A stretch of 26,591 nucleotides of DNA from a virus: positions 1 through 26,591 of the IMG/VR virus record IMGVR_UViG_3300031351_000016. The stretch is one strand, 5' to 3'. Numbering within the stretch: position 1 is the first letter of the stretch; every line of letters starts with the position of its first letter. Shown here piece after piece: positions 12,300 to 23,704 of this stretch. The position numbers were made by a program, and so were the translations under genes. Under the pieces are notes generated by a model. The model was not told the origin of the DNA. It searched no databases and worked only from the letters and a program-made list of their open reading frames with translations.

Positions 12300-12911
12300 A
12301 TGGCATTTATAGATTATTCATATTTTACGGGTGATATTAATGTTTCAAACGCTGTTGATCAGAACCTTTTATTACAGGCTATCGAGCAGTATGAAAAAAA
12401 AATACTGATCAAACTACTGGGCTATGAACTGTATGCTTTATTGCAGGCAGACCTGACCGATGGCGTTCCACAAACACAGATTTATAAAGATTTGGTTAAT
12501 GGCGCAGCTTTTACTCATGAGTTCAGGGACCAGGATATATCCCTGAAATGGGAAGGGCTGAAAAATGATGCAAAAGTATCTTTGATCTCATACTATGTAT
12601 TCTTTAATTTTGTTGAACGTGACATAACTCCTTATTATGGTACAGGCATATCCTTTGCGCCGAAAGGTAAAGACTGGGAACGTGCCGAACCTGTTAATAA
12701 GCTGTGTTACGTCTGGGAAAAGATGCGTGAGTTGTATGGTAAGATACCCGTTGAATATAAGGATAGTTTTAAATATCCTATCAAGGGATCCGATATGGGG
12801 TATGTTTTTAACACTGCCCCTTCGGCCTATAACTTTCTTTACGCTAACAAGGATGATTACCCTACATGGATATTCACTCCTTTATGGAATATTAATGTTT
12901 TTGGAATTTAA
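12300..12911 (+). CDS. Head-tail connector candidate (DUF6712-like), 203 aa
   Basis: MAFIDYSYFTGDINVSN, then LLLQAIEQYEKKILIKLLGY (helical pair typical of adaptor proteins), a loop, LKWEGLKNDAKVSLISYYVF (about residues 80-101), and a Tyr/Pro-rich C-terminus (YPTWIFTPLWNINVFG). The arrangement and its place after the capsid genes agree with the head-tail adaptor proteins found in Bacteroidetes phages, often annotated DUF6712. That name is from memory and unverified. Such proteins form a ring under the portal. It is not related by eye to gp6 of HK97 at the sequence level. Confidence 0.6.
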   Translation: MAFIDYSYFTGDINVSNAVDQNLLLQAIEQYEKKILIKLLGYELYALLQADLTDGVPQTQIYKDLVNGAAFTHEFRDQDISLKWEGLKNDAKVSLISYYVFFNFVERDITPYYGTGISFAPKGKDWERAEPVNKLCYVWEKMRELYGKIPVEYKDSFKYPIKGSDMGYVFNTAPSAYNFLYANKDDYPTWIFTPLWNINVFGI

Positions 12912-12922
12912 TACTAAACAAT

Positions 12923-13258
12923 ATGAATTTATACGGTGATCAAATTGACGAACTGTTGGCAAGGAGCGGAACCTTTGATATAACCGGTACAGCGGCCGTG
13001 AGTAATATGAATTTTTTTGCCTTTACTCCTTCTGATGGTGCAGTGCTGGAAGCTATTAAAGGCATTCCATTGAAAAGTGCAGCATCAACAACAACAGAGA
13101 TAACATCTGCAGAGGTTGATCTGGCAACATATTTTTTGACCGCTTTAACAGATCCGCTTGTTAATGAACTATACCGTGTGCCTGGTTATATTATTACTCA
13201 TATAAAACTGACCAGTGGCACGATACATGGTTATTTAGCTGAAGATCAGCCGACATGA
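12923..13258 (+). CDS. Hypothetical structural protein, 111 aa
   Basis: Short acidic start (MNLYGDQIDELLARSGTFD), a strand/loop middle (AAVSNMNFFAFTPSDGAVLE, GIPLKSAASTTTEITSAEVD) and a hydrophobic C-terminal part ending GTIHGYLAEDQPT. Thr/Ser/Ala-rich and probably beta; it may be a minor head, neck or decoration protein from its place in the operon. The ATGA overlap with the next gene suggests coupling. No recognised family. Confidence 0.65.
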   Translation: MNLYGDQIDELLARSGTFDITGTAAVSNMNFFAFTPSDGAVLEAIKGIPLKSAASTTTEITSAEVDLATYFLTALTDPLVNELYRVPGYIITHIKLTSGTIHGYLAEDQPT

Positions 13259-14067
13259 TCGTTATAAAGGTAAATAGAAAAAGGTATAAAGGTGTTTATG
13301 GATGGGATGATATTACACTGAAGCTCTTTAGTGAGCTGGCGATGATAGAAATGCCTCCGAAATACGAGGCTTTTATTTTAGCTCATGGCAGTATGGATAC
13401 TGAAAAGAAAGAAAGCATTGATTATTTTATCAAAGTGGCCTCGGAGATTAGTGATAAAGAGTTAAACATCGCCTTCCCTGCTTATTATAAAAAAGTTATT
13501 CAGTGCTTGACAAATATACCTGATAGTGTTTTAAGCCGGGCAACGAGTGATGATATTACTGACCTTTATGATAAGTATTTTAAGCACTTTGTAGTTTCAT
13601 TGATTTACCATGTACCGGTTGAAAGGCTTCTGGGGCGTACTGTTGAATATATTCCACCGTATCCCAGGAGCTTCAGGATAGGTGGTGAAAGGTTTTATTT
13701 ACCATTAACGATACGTATAATGGATCAGGACATACCACTTGCTGACGAGCCGATAATAAGCTATACTGAAGCAAGTGATATTTTCAGGAATATGCGTATA
13801 TCAAAGGATGATGTTAAGCGACTGGCATTATTTATGGCTATTTATTGCCGCAAACGCCGGGAAAAATATGATGAAAAAACAGTGTTACAACGGTCTGAAC
13901 AATTTATGGCAACAAAGATGAGCATTGTCTGGTCGGTTTTTTTTTACACTGTTCGGCGAATGCCCGATGCCGTGCTGACTACCCGGTTATTTGGCGACCT
14001 CCCAAGACCGATCCGGGAAATCGTGTCTCAGGTGCGGACCTACAAAAGTATGGCAACCGGGGCCTGA
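13255..14067 (+). CDS. Tail assembly chaperone candidate (0-frame product), 270 aa
   Basis: MIVIKVNRKRYKGVYGWDDI followed by TLKLFSELAMIEMP resembles the opening of phage tail-assembly chaperones, an 'N-G/R-K-x-Y-x ... W-D-x-[IL]-T-L' strand-turn pattern. The rest is helical (DSVLSRATSDDITDLYDKYF, DDVKRLALFMAIYCRKRREK). Such chaperones load the tape-measure protein and usually have a second, longer form made by programmed -1 frameshifting. Here a T9 tract (13937-13945) lies at codons for F229-F230. The -1 frame is then open to 14180, with no start codon except an ATG 18 codons from its end. The 0-frame product ends TYKSMATGA. It lies before a tail-terminator-like gene. The family call is by pattern only; alternatives are a neck or tail-completion protein. 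Confidence 0.6.
   Translation: MIVIKVNRKRYKGVYGWDDITLKLFSELAMIEMPPKYEAFILAHGSMDTEKKESIDYFIKVASEISDKELNIAFPAYYKKVIQCLTNIPDSVLSRATSDDITDLYDKYFKHFVVSLIYHVPVERLLGRTVEYIPPYPRSFRIGGERFYLPLTIRIMDQDIPLADEPIISYTEASDIFRNMRISKDDVKRLALFMAIYCRKRREKYDEKTVLQRSEQFMATKMSIVWSVFFYTVRRMPDAVLTTRLFGDLPRPIREIVSQVRTYKSMATGA
13937..13945 (+). other. Slippery T9 tract, candidate programmed -1 frameshift site
   Basis: In the 0 frame the reading is GTT TTT TTT TAC, so T-TTT-TTT forms an X-XXY-YYZ slippery heptamer on which both tRNAs can re-pair one base back. A small CGGC/GCCG hairpin (13954-13957 with 13969-13972) starts 8 nt downstream and might act as a stimulator. A homopolymer read-length error would look the same. 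Confidence 0.55.
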
Positions 14068-14180
14068 TATACGAGGTTGCAGGTTATGGCGGGGGAATAG
14101 CGGATATACCGGTTATTGAACGGATGAAACTGTATGATTTTTATAACTATCTGGCATATAAACGTAGTGAAAGGATTTAA
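13938..14180 (+). CDS. -1 frame extension of the tail assembly chaperone (start-less)
   Basis: After a slip on the T9 tract, translation would continue for 78 codons in the -1 frame, giving a fusion of about 308 residues. The -1 frame is open from 13899 to 14177 and stops at 14178, 2 nt before the next ATG. It therefore neatly fills the otherwise empty 115 bp after the 0-frame stop. It has no ATG, GTG or TTG except ATG 14124. The distal part reads like a real protein: GNRGLIYEVAGYGGG, then DIPVIERMKLYDFYNYLAYK and a basic end. A C-terminal 'L-Y-D-F-x-x-Y-L-A' helix suits a tape-measure-binding domain (inference). The overlap zone 13945-14065 is also visibly richer in G+C than its neighbours, as expected for dual coding. 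Confidence 0.6.
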   Translation, partial: FFLHCSANARCRADYPVIWRPPKTDPGNRVSGADLQKYGNRGLIYEVAGYGGGIADIPVIERMKLYDFYNYLAYKRSERI

Positions 14181-14182
14181 TA

Positions 14183-14611
14183 ATGACGCTTGCACAACTC
14201 GAAACAAAGTTACAAACACTAACTGGCACTTCAATAGCAGAAGTTATTGTTGATTCTGATATTTATTTCACTATCGGACGTGAAAAAAACTATCCTTTCA
14301 TATTATGGATGCTTGACGGGGCCAGGTTCGATAAGGATTACCGTAACTCTACAATACAGGATATTAAGATAATAACTATTACAGCATTTATCGTTACTAA
14401 TTATGATCATGACAGTGACAATAAACTTGAGGTATGGGATACTATCGAAGAGTATTTTAAGGTATATATAAACAAGATCAATGAACTGTCATATATTCAG
14501 GTAGTTAATATTAATGCTTTAAAAGGCACATATATTTGGGAAGGGGAACGGTCCCCGGATAAAGAACTGGGTATAATGTTTCCTGAAATTATTATAAAAA
14601 TGTTCTGCTAA
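14183..14611 (+). CDS. Tail terminator / tail completion-like protein, 142 aa
   Basis: MTLAQLETKLQTLTGTSIAE, a strand-rich core with a hydrophobic run (IKIITITAFIVTN) and polar loop (DHDSDNKLEVWDTIEEYF, about residues 73-90), then a strand-rich end (YIWEGERSPDKELGIMFPEI) that stops IIIKMFC. A size of about 140 with a central 'D-x-L-E-x-W-D-x-I' helix between strands is like the tail-terminator and neck proteins that cap the tail tube. Its place between the chaperone candidate and an HK97 gp10-like gene agrees. Its stop overlaps the next ATG (TAATG). Sequence identity to known terminators is not evident by eye. Confidence 0.5.
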   Translation: MTLAQLETKLQTLTGTSIAEVIVDSDIYFTIGREKNYPFILWMLDGARFDKDYRNSTIQDIKIITITAFIVTNYDHDSDNKLEVWDTIEEYFKVYINKINELSYIQVVNINALKGTYIWEGERSPDKELGIMFPEIIIKMFC

Positions 14612-21643: not shown

Positions 21644-22300
21644 ATGAAAAAAATTGCTAAATACGCAGGCTACATTGTAGGGTTTGCTTTGCTGGTAGCT
21701 ATGGTATTCCCGGAATTATTTCTACCGGCTGGAATTGTGGGAGCTTTTGCCCTTGCAATATTCACCCAGACATGTGCGAAAAACGTATCAGGGGCCTCAA
21801 AGGTTTTTATAGCAGAGAAATCTGTTGCAACAGCTTTTACAATAACAGCCGGAGAGATTAGTGCAATAACAGGCACCACTCCTTTCATGAGGGTTGATGC
21901 TGTACAGGATTCGGTAAGCTGGTCAGAGCTTGGTGAGTTGATAGGGCTTAATAATTGGAAAATCACCAATACTATTGAGCTTGATATTATGCCACCTGCT
22001 ACCGCAACAAGTACCTTTTTGCAGGCTCTTATTGACGGATCACCATGTGGATTCTTTGCCATAATTATTGATGGTAATGGTCAATGCTGGGTTGTTGGTC
22101 ATAATGAAACGGATGTGCGTGAACGCCCGTTGCGTCTCAGTGGCCAGGATCATAAAACAGGCAAGGGACTTTCAGAAGCTGAAGGCAATACTGTCAGGAT
22201 CACATTGACTAATGAATGTGGTGGACTGGCTTTACCACTAGATGCTACTCTTAATGCTAGTACTCTTGATGGAACAGGCACACATATTAAATGGGCATAA
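21644..22300 (+). CDS. Tail tube-like protein with hydrophobic N-terminus, 218 aa
   Basis: Residues about 46-218 read like the tail tube proteins of Bacteroidetes phages: NVSGASKVFIAEKSVATAFT, ITAGEISAITGTTPF, TATSTFLQALIDGSPCGFFA, IIIDGNGQCWVVGHNETDVR and ERPLRLSGQDHKTGKGLSEA. Residues 1-44 are a very unusual addition: two hydrophobic segments (8-22 and 25-41) split by F-P-E-L, ending in TQTCAKN with a Cys at 44, like a membrane anchor or lipobox-type leader. No internal ATG would remove this region. A promoter-like sequence and an A-rich leader lie upstream. The family call is by pattern and position, and the mature subunit may be processed (inference). Confidence 0.65.
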   Translation: MKKIAKYAGYIVGFALLVAMVFPELFLPAGIVGAFALAIFTQTCAKNVSGASKVFIAEKSVATAFTITAGEISAITGTTPFMRVDAVQDSVSWSELGELIGLNNWKITNTIELDIMPPATATSTFLQALIDGSPCGFFAIIIDGNGQCWVVGHNETDVRERPLRLSGQDHKTGKGLSEAEGNTVRITLTNECGGLALPLDATLNASTLDGTGTHIKWA

Positions 22301-22549: not shown

Positions 22550-23704
22550 ATGCCGGGAATATCAATATCAATAAGTCCGTTTTTAAGTAAAAAAGGCAGT
22601 GGATGGGATTCATCTATTGTTGCTCTTACAATAGCTTACACAGATACGCAGTTTACTTTTAAATTCAAACTGCCTTCGATAAAAAATATTACTATCTACT
22701 GGGGTGATGGTACAAGCGAGAACGTAGTCGGTCAGGATGCGGCACTGATAACAAAGGTCAGCACTTATGCGGCTCCCGGCACTTTTTCTTTCTGGCTAAA
22801 GGGTGATGTTATTGACCTTACCTATATTGATATTTCGAATCAGGCTCATGTATCAGGTGACGTTAGTGGCTGGAGTGCTTTGACTTCTTTAACTTATTTG
22901 AATTGCTACAGCAATTCATTAACAGGTGACGTAAGTGGATGGAGTGCTTTGACTTCTTTAACTTATTTACGTTGCTACAGCAATTCATTAACAGGTGACG
23001 TAAGTGGCTGGAGTGCTTTGACTTCTTTAACTTATTTGTATTGCTCCAGCAATTCATTAACAGGTGACGTAAGTGGATGGAGTGCTTTGACTTCTTTAAC
23101 TACTTTTAATTGCTCCAGCAATTCATTAACAGGTGACGTGAGTGGATGGAGTGCTTTGACTTCTTTAACTACTTTGTATTGCTACAGCAATTCATTAACA
23201 GGTGACGTGAGTGGATGGAGTGCTTTGACTTCTTTAACTACTTTGTATTGCTACAGCAATTCATTAACAGGTGACGTAAGTGGATGGAGTGCTTTGACTT
23301 CTTTAACTGCTTTGTATTGCTACAGGAATTCATTAACAGGTGACGTGAGTGGATGGAGTGCTTTGACTTCTTTAACTGCTTTGTATTGCTACATCAATTC
23401 ATTAACAGGTGACGTGAGTGGATGGAGTGCTTTGACTTCTTTAACTGCTTTTTTAGCTGATCTCAATGCACTGGATTTTGACGCTTCACCGGCCTGGGCC
23501 GCACTTAATTGCGGAGTGAATTTTAACCTGGCTAATAATGGCATGACCTCCGGCCAGGTGGATAATGCTTTAATATCCTTTGCACAGGGACCGATAACAA
23601 ATACAACAATAACAATGAACGGCACCAATGCGGCCAGGACAGGAACTTCAGACGCTGCAGTAGCTACACTGATAGCTGCAGGATGTACCGTAATAACAAC
23701 ATAA
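22550..23704 (+). CDS. Leucine-rich-repeat tail fibre protein, 384 aa
   Basis: Probable receptor-binding fibre. Residues 1-100 contain a PKD/Ig-like beta region with IKNITIYWGDGTSENVV, typical of Bacteroidetes surface LRR proteins. Residues 103-309 are nine 23-residue units of the form GDVSGWSALTSLTxLxCxxN followed by SLT (the last unit diverges). The C-terminal about 75 residues form the cap shared with the protein at 15147. Variation between units is concentrated in the L-x-x-L-x-x-x-x-N strand (Y/T/A, L/F, N/R/Y, Y/S, S/R/I), the face that binds ligand in LRR proteins. It starts 14 nt after a terminator. No tail-attachment domain or catalytic motif is seen. It is followed by a small partner gene. 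Confidence 0.75.
   Translation: MPGISISISPFLSKKGSGWDSSIVALTIAYTDTQFTFKFKLPSIKNITIYWGDGTSENVVGQDAALITKVSTYAAPGTFSFWLKGDVIDLTYIDISNQAHVSGDVSGWSALTSLTYLNCYSNSLTGDVSGWSALTSLTYLRCYSNSLTGDVSGWSALTSLTYLYCSSNSLTGDVSGWSALTSLTTFNCSSNSLTGDVSGWSALTSLTTLYCYSNSLTGDVSGWSALTSLTTLYCYSNSLTGDVSGWSALTSLTALYCYRNSLTGDVSGWSALTSLTALYCYINSLTGDVSGWSALTSLTAFLADLNALDFDASPAWAALNCGVNFNLANNGMTSGQVDNALISFAQGPITNTTITMNGTNAARTGTSDAAVATLIAAGCTVITT
22856..23476 (+). repeat. Nine tandem 69-bp repeats coding 23-residue LRR units
   Basis: Units start at 22856, 22925, 22994, 23063, 23132, 23201, 23270, 23339 and 23408. All keep exact 69-bp phase, and units 5 and 6 (23132 and 23201) are identical in sequence. Unit 9 diverges in its second half into the cap. 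Near-identity at the DNA level, with changes limited to a few codons, indicates recent expansion and likely copy-number change by recombination or slippage. Confidence 0.95.

Follow-up and report, generated by a model that had tools for sequence, protein, structure and literature searches.

A conserved frame switch at a nine-thymine tract in a gene upstream of the tape-measure gene of uncultured phages

A gene ahead of the tape-measure gene of an uncultured phage carries a run of nine thymines (T9) at which its reading frame would be switched to -1. The T9 site was unchanged in all 15 related phages compared here, and from this we conclude that the frame switch is, on comparative grounds, a real and selected device. 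Besides the site and its conservation, the comparisons revealed selection on the -1 frame, probable selection on the 0-frame tail and homology of the domain encoded in the -1 frame to a domain that is encoded in the normal way in other phages.

Results

Description of the frameshift gene

The window, i.e. the whole stretch of DNA that was analysed, comprises 26,591 nucleotides of a viral record (IMGVR_UViG_3300031351_000016). The gene lies on the + strand. Its 0-frame open reading frame (13255..14067), which corresponds to a short product of 270 aa, starts at ATG 13255 and ends at 14067 as previously described, with the stop TGA at 14065..14067 evident from both reading and translation. The slip site consists of the 0-frame codons GTT TTT TTT TAC (13936..13947), which hold the T9 tract (13937-13945) and, as had been proposed, a heptamer of the type X_XXY_YYZ in the correct 0-frame register, T_TTT_TTT at 13938-13944. 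Translation of the -1 frame confirmed that it is open, from 13899 to 14177, with the stop TAA at 14178-14180 and the following ATG at 14183; its sole ATG, GTG or TTG is ATG 14124, the one exception named in the earlier statement that it has no usable start codon. The -1-frame extension past the tract (13944..14180) comprises 78 codons and the stop, and a fusion at T9 would have 230 residues encoded in the 0 frame and 78 in the -1 frame, giving the 308 aa predicted in the preliminary description. By translation, the peptide YGNRGLIYEVAGYGGGIADIPVIER is encoded in the -1 frame of this gene. In the overlap (13945..14064, GC 0.59), 40 codons are open and conserved in both frames. Its previously noted GC richness is genuine, since 13946-14064 has a GC content of 0.59, compared with 0.37 for the window, and lies above 99.98% of all 119-nt stretches.

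Conservation of the site

Relatives were collected from IMG/VR by a scan with the 0-frame protein followed by alignments, and were reduced to 15 distinct lineages (the window, L002, L009, L011, L012, L014, L015, L016, L017, L018, L023, L024, L029, L036 and L039); the T9-type relatives are all uncultured contigs. Identity of the 0-frame proteins to that of the window ranged from 82 to about 32%. The preliminary description proposed to look for the slippery tract and the open -1 frame in homologous phages, and both are kept in 15 of the 15 lineages. The tract is exactly T9, never T10, and in identical register throughout; the first slip codon is GTT in 14 lineages and CTT in L029, and the fourth is TAC or TGC. 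No homologue was found in which the distal segment has a start of its own. A search with the -1 peptide only, using patterns located entirely 3' of the tract, which could have detected straight or separately started versions, led to the same site, with T9 upstream in all 15 matches examined (some of which are the same contigs). In the lineages measured, the -1 extension has 78-80 codons, except in L018 (89 codons). The distance from T9 to the 0-frame stop is the same in nine of the 13 distinct lineages with a readable stop; the other stops lie 3 nt closer or 27-39 nt further on, that of L029 also being close. The coding DNA of 14 lineages, 159 kb in total, contains 14 runs of at least nine Ts, each of which is the slip site. 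Scans of bacterial and archaeal genomes yielded no prophage relatives, and tblastn with three members against 50,697 phage records yielded no relatives.

Selection on the -1 frame and probable selection on the 0-frame tail

At positions before the site that encode the same residue, the same codon was used in 42.5% of pairwise lineage comparisons. Codon identity was 100% at the four slip codons (366 same-residue comparisons) and 57% at same-residue positions after the site, with 60-66% in the overlap bins. For the 15 lineages together, the -1 frame contained 20-44 stops per 20-codon bin upstream and none in codons 241-260. Given the 0-frame protein, the probability that the -1 frame is open by chance over the overlap was P = 0.003-0.08 per lineage, values that cannot simply be multiplied because the lineages are related, though their upstream silent sites have strongly diverged, as judged from codon identity. 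Between the window and L002, dS dropped to 0.14 in the overlap, compared with 0.76 upstream. The dN/dS of the -1 frame was 0.15 within the overlap and 0.04 past the 0-frame stop, where it exceeded 1 in the other two frames. From these substitution patterns, we conclude that the -1 frame is under purifying selection. In every lineage, the 0 frame continues without a stop for 38-53 codons beyond the site; given the -1 protein (P 0.03-0.61 per lineage), this is weaker evidence, and the 0-frame tail is likely under selection as well. The GC content of the overlap is higher than that of the upstream gene in 13 of 14 lineages and equal in the remaining one. By these measures, the approximately 120 nt between the slip site and the 0-frame stop code in both frames.

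Relatives with a single reading frame

AlphaFold2 predicted an N-terminal beta hairpin, a helical bundle, a beta-rich middle and C-terminal helices for the 0-frame protein (mean pLDDT 73), and four helices for the -1 segment (mean pLDDT 68). In a Foldseek search of BFVD, the 0-frame model matched unnamed viral proteins, including R9VW65 of Flavobacterium phage 6H (E 4e-4), and only through this match to phage 6H were isolate relatives reached. R9VW65 is followed, in a different frame, by a second stretch that looked similar to the -1 peptide. One straight ORF of 270-301 aa is found in FPSV-F7 (a close relative of 6H), laban6-1, Ingeline_1 and Bacteroides phage BT-TP2, and 13 further gut-phage copies from IMG/VR also consist of one straight ORF. 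Phages of Flavobacterium, Cellulophaga and Bacteroides carry the C-terminal domain in one uninterrupted gene. The -1 peptide aligned with the C-terminal domain of the straight-ORF proteins (hhalign probability 95-96%, E 5e-8 to 2e-9), while the controls gave at most 0.4% for the 0 and +1 frames, 0.07% for the reversed profile and at most 1.6% for 100 column shuffles. Because only the -1 frame matches this domain, the frame switch would join a real, largely helical domain to the body of the protein. The N-terminal parts could not be aligned by sequence to the straight-ORF proteins (hhalign 1%), and a relation between them is suggested by the Foldseek match of the predicted structure together with the gene position.

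The phrog_25418 family, which comprises single-ORF proteins of Duneviridae (e.g. FPSV-F7, laban6-1 and Ingeline_1) and of BT-TP2, resembles the window gene in having a C-terminal domain homologous to the -1 peptide and a like gene position, past the adaptor and ahead of small neck-like genes and the tape-measure gene. It differs in its straight ORF without T9 and without a frame switch, both of which the window gene has. With hmmscan, none of the lineages matched phrog_25418. Scans against Pfam and PHROG with both frames, singly and with all aligned members, gave nothing significant; likewise, no match was obtained in a PDB profile search with the 0 frame or in a Foldseek search of the 0-frame model against PDB, and the -1 model gave nothing below E 0.2 against BFVD. 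The -1 profile matched the PDB only over short segments of designed proteins (SAKe), which we dismissed as chance matches.

In Flavobacterium phage 6H (KC959568; L042, 10047-10927), the gene is split into a 191-aa ORF and an unannotated downstream segment, where near-identical phages including FPSV-F7 (L043, 9001-9882) have one 293-aa ORF. This split is probably an indel or a sequencing error in the 6H record.

Sequencing error and separate genes

Straight single-ORF homologues in isolated phages, the error-prone nature of homopolymers and the apparently similar split of phage 6H relative to FPSV-F7 would all agree with a sequencing or assembly error in the window, the true genome having T10 and one straight ORF. 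This is extremely improbable, as the same T9 was recovered in 15 lineages from many independent metagenomes. Moreover, a straight gene would not be expected to keep the 0 frame open for some 40 codons beyond the site in every lineage, nor to evolve slowly at 0-frame-silent sites in the overlap. Hardly more probable is an arrangement of two separate genes, in which translational coupling would let the distal segment start either at a TTG or CTG that overlaps the 0-frame stop or at ATG 14124. A TTG overlaps the stop in L002 (4192), L009 (5747), L012 (4216) and L015 (6801), but the window has CTG there, and the -1 frame of L011 is devoid of any ATG, GTG or TTG. Constraint on the -1 frame also sets in at T9, ahead of every such start codon, and in other phages the -1 peptide corresponds to the C-terminal domain of a longer protein. 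On the evidence of conservation, selection and start codons, we consider both a sequencing error and a separate gene to be excluded for practical purposes.

Gene context

The gene order is a DUF6712-like head-tail adaptor candidate, a 111-aa gene, the frameshift gene, a 142-aa gene, a 179-aa gene, two long genes and the tape-measure gene; the adaptor candidate, the 142-aa gene and the tape-measure gene lie on the + strand. The adaptor candidate (12300..12911), two genes upstream of the frameshift gene, had a weak match below the curated cut-off. The 142-aa gene (14183..14611) adjoins the frameshift gene in relatives too, and has the same position as a small DUF1834 family gene (gp33) in Bacteroides phage BT-TP2. 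The tape measure protein (803 aa, PF10145; 18918..21329) is encoded 4.7 kb and four genes downstream.

Several neighbouring genes were observed in passing. A small unannotated helical ORF (e.g. KESKIKLIDHILNSLCKCELTDKGREYLIRLKDDI), just past the -1 stop, separates the frameshift gene from its downstream neighbour in L011, L012, L014, L015, L017, L018 and L023; it was not seen in the window, L002 or L009. A GIY-YIG-like endonuclease sequence (ISGIYKIQSKIKPERIYVGSA) occurs directly past the frameshift gene or slightly further on (L016 from ~6927; L040, 10090-10887). Past the tape-measure gene, the window encodes a 218-aa protein without a family match (21644-22300), which by eye could be a tail-tube protein and would then make the tail gene order unusual, and a protein with many near-identical repeats (SNSLTGDVSGWSALTSLT; 22550-23704).

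Discussion

The switch was initially described as a programmed -1 frameshift. That a conserved, selected switch at T9 fuses the -1 segment to the protein is upheld by our results; the ribosomal level at which it was placed is not established, as slippage of the polymerase fits equally well. We lean slightly towards tandem -1 tRNA slippage of the ribosome on T_TTT_TTT. The motif U_UU.U_UU.U is one of those that shift at a rate above 0.10% in E. coli when no stimulator is present (PMC4066793), and -1 shifting for tail chaperones is widespread among tailed phages (PMC5009743). Downstream of the site, no conserved RNA structure was found among pseudoknot-free folds (RNAalifold -1.1 kcal/mol) and single-sequence folding z-scores were scattered around 0; the 24 nt upstream showed no evident Shine-Dalgarno-like element. 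Some -1 ribosomal frameshift sites do without a stimulator.

Programmed transcriptional slippage, in which RNA polymerase would add one U (or lose two) at T9 and some mRNAs would yield the 308-aa protein by normal translation, is a real possibility that falls somewhat short of probable. It requires no stimulatory RNA structure, and none was found here. In none of the 15 lineages does the tract deviate from nine Ts; in vivo, bacterial RNA polymerase slips very efficiently on nine As or Ts, and the two dnaX products of Thermus result from slippage at a nine-base run (PMC5009743). Thermus dnaX and Shigella mxiE share with the window gene a nine-base homopolymer switch and two products, but their slippage has been experimentally shown, whereas the window site is known from its sequence and its register also fits ribosomal slippage. 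The length of the tract, however, is not independent evidence for transcriptional slippage. It is nearly forced by the flanking codons and undiagnostic, because Val or Leu before the two Phe codons and Tyr or Cys after them extend the heptamer to nine.

A census of run lengths in the 159 kb of coding DNA from 14 lineages including the window, with the slip site masked, was compared with synonymous shuffles. Consistent with transcriptional slippage, runs of at least eight Ts were below expectation (1 versus 7.1; none of 300 shuffles was as low), and T7 runs in the slippery register were only mildly reduced (12 versus 16.3). Runs of at least eight As, on the other hand, were not avoided (15 versus 16.6 expected), and the sole T8 register without an in-frame heptamer was not depleted (1 versus 1.1 expected). 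Because this heptamer-free register is undepleted and the counts per register are too small, the census favours neither mechanism. Because replication errors hit both strands alike, the avoidance of long T runs but not of long A runs nevertheless suggests that selection acts on RNA or on translation. The same coding DNA is also poor in T6 runs in register 1 (3 versus 13.2 expected).

The gene had further been described as tail-assembly-chaperone-like. In favour of this identity are the two-frame gene and the -1 extension without its own start. It is not supported by any Pfam, PHROG or PDB match, and the gene does not stand beside the tape-measure gene. Like lambda gpG/gpGT and related chaperone genes, the window gene lies in the late structural region, would specify two products with a common N-terminal part, and encodes its C-terminal domain in a -1 frame without a start, with a slippery tract close to where the first ORF ends. 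It differs from them in the lack of detectable homology, in a T9 tract without conserved RNA structure and in the distance from the tape-measure gene. Genes of the lambda type have a few dual-coded codons after the site; the slip site lies on average 26 and 36 nt from the in-frame stop in the PRFect chaperone data sets (PMC10885494), compared with 120 nt from the heptamer to the 0-frame stop in the window. By analogy, there is a moderate probability that the gene works like a lambda-type chaperone gene, though it is not filed as one. The earlier proposal of a C-terminal helix that binds the tape measure is at odds with the lambda model, in which the tape measure is the partner of the G part and the major tail protein that of the T part (PMC5009743); if the analogy holds, the proposed partner should be reversed.

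Alternatively, and more tentatively, the recoded protein could be a neck or connector component, with the long form as a minor structural variant. The position of the gene, after the adaptor-like gene and before small neck-like genes in both the window and its relatives, is in line with such a role, as are the non-adjacent tape-measure gene and the lack of chaperone homology. Two products that differ by a C-terminal domain through a -1 switch are, on the other side, the classical chaperone design, and two chaperone-named matches in BFVD also argue against a neck protein, although these are weak (E 0.3 and 3.9) and carry little weight.

As the most likely explanation, we propose that two proteins with a common 230-residue body would be made from one gene. 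Most expression would stay in frame and end at 14067, giving the 270-aa protein with a 40-residue tail, and a fraction would shift to -1 on T9 and run to 14180, giving the 308-aa protein, of which the last 78 residues form the conserved, largely helical domain. The short and long products would most likely act as a tail-assembly chaperone pair, like lambda gpG and gpGT, in a fixed ratio set by the slip frequency. We infer the production of both proteins from the genome sequences, and their function as a chaperone pair is suggested by the gene position and the two-product design. The scheme as a whole, with two products made by a ribosomal slip and acting as a chaperone pair, has in our view an even chance of being correct. 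That RNA-polymerase slippage on T9, instead of ribosomal frameshifting, sets the ratio of two tail-assembly proteins across a 40-codon stretch encoding two conserved tails is rather unlikely. The relatives with a single straight ORF indicate that the two-product design is not universal in the wider group.

The results document a conserved frame switch in a clade of uncultured phages in which no recoded gene had been annotated. With standard gene callers, the 78-residue extension would go unnoticed in every one of these genomes. With its long dual-coded stretch and no evident stimulator, the gene is a good test case for distinguishing ribosomal from transcriptional slippage. The one-frame relatives in isolated phages furthermore provide a natural control. 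In those phages the same C-terminal domain is fused constitutively, and here it would be fused by slippage; the role of the short form can therefore be asked directly.
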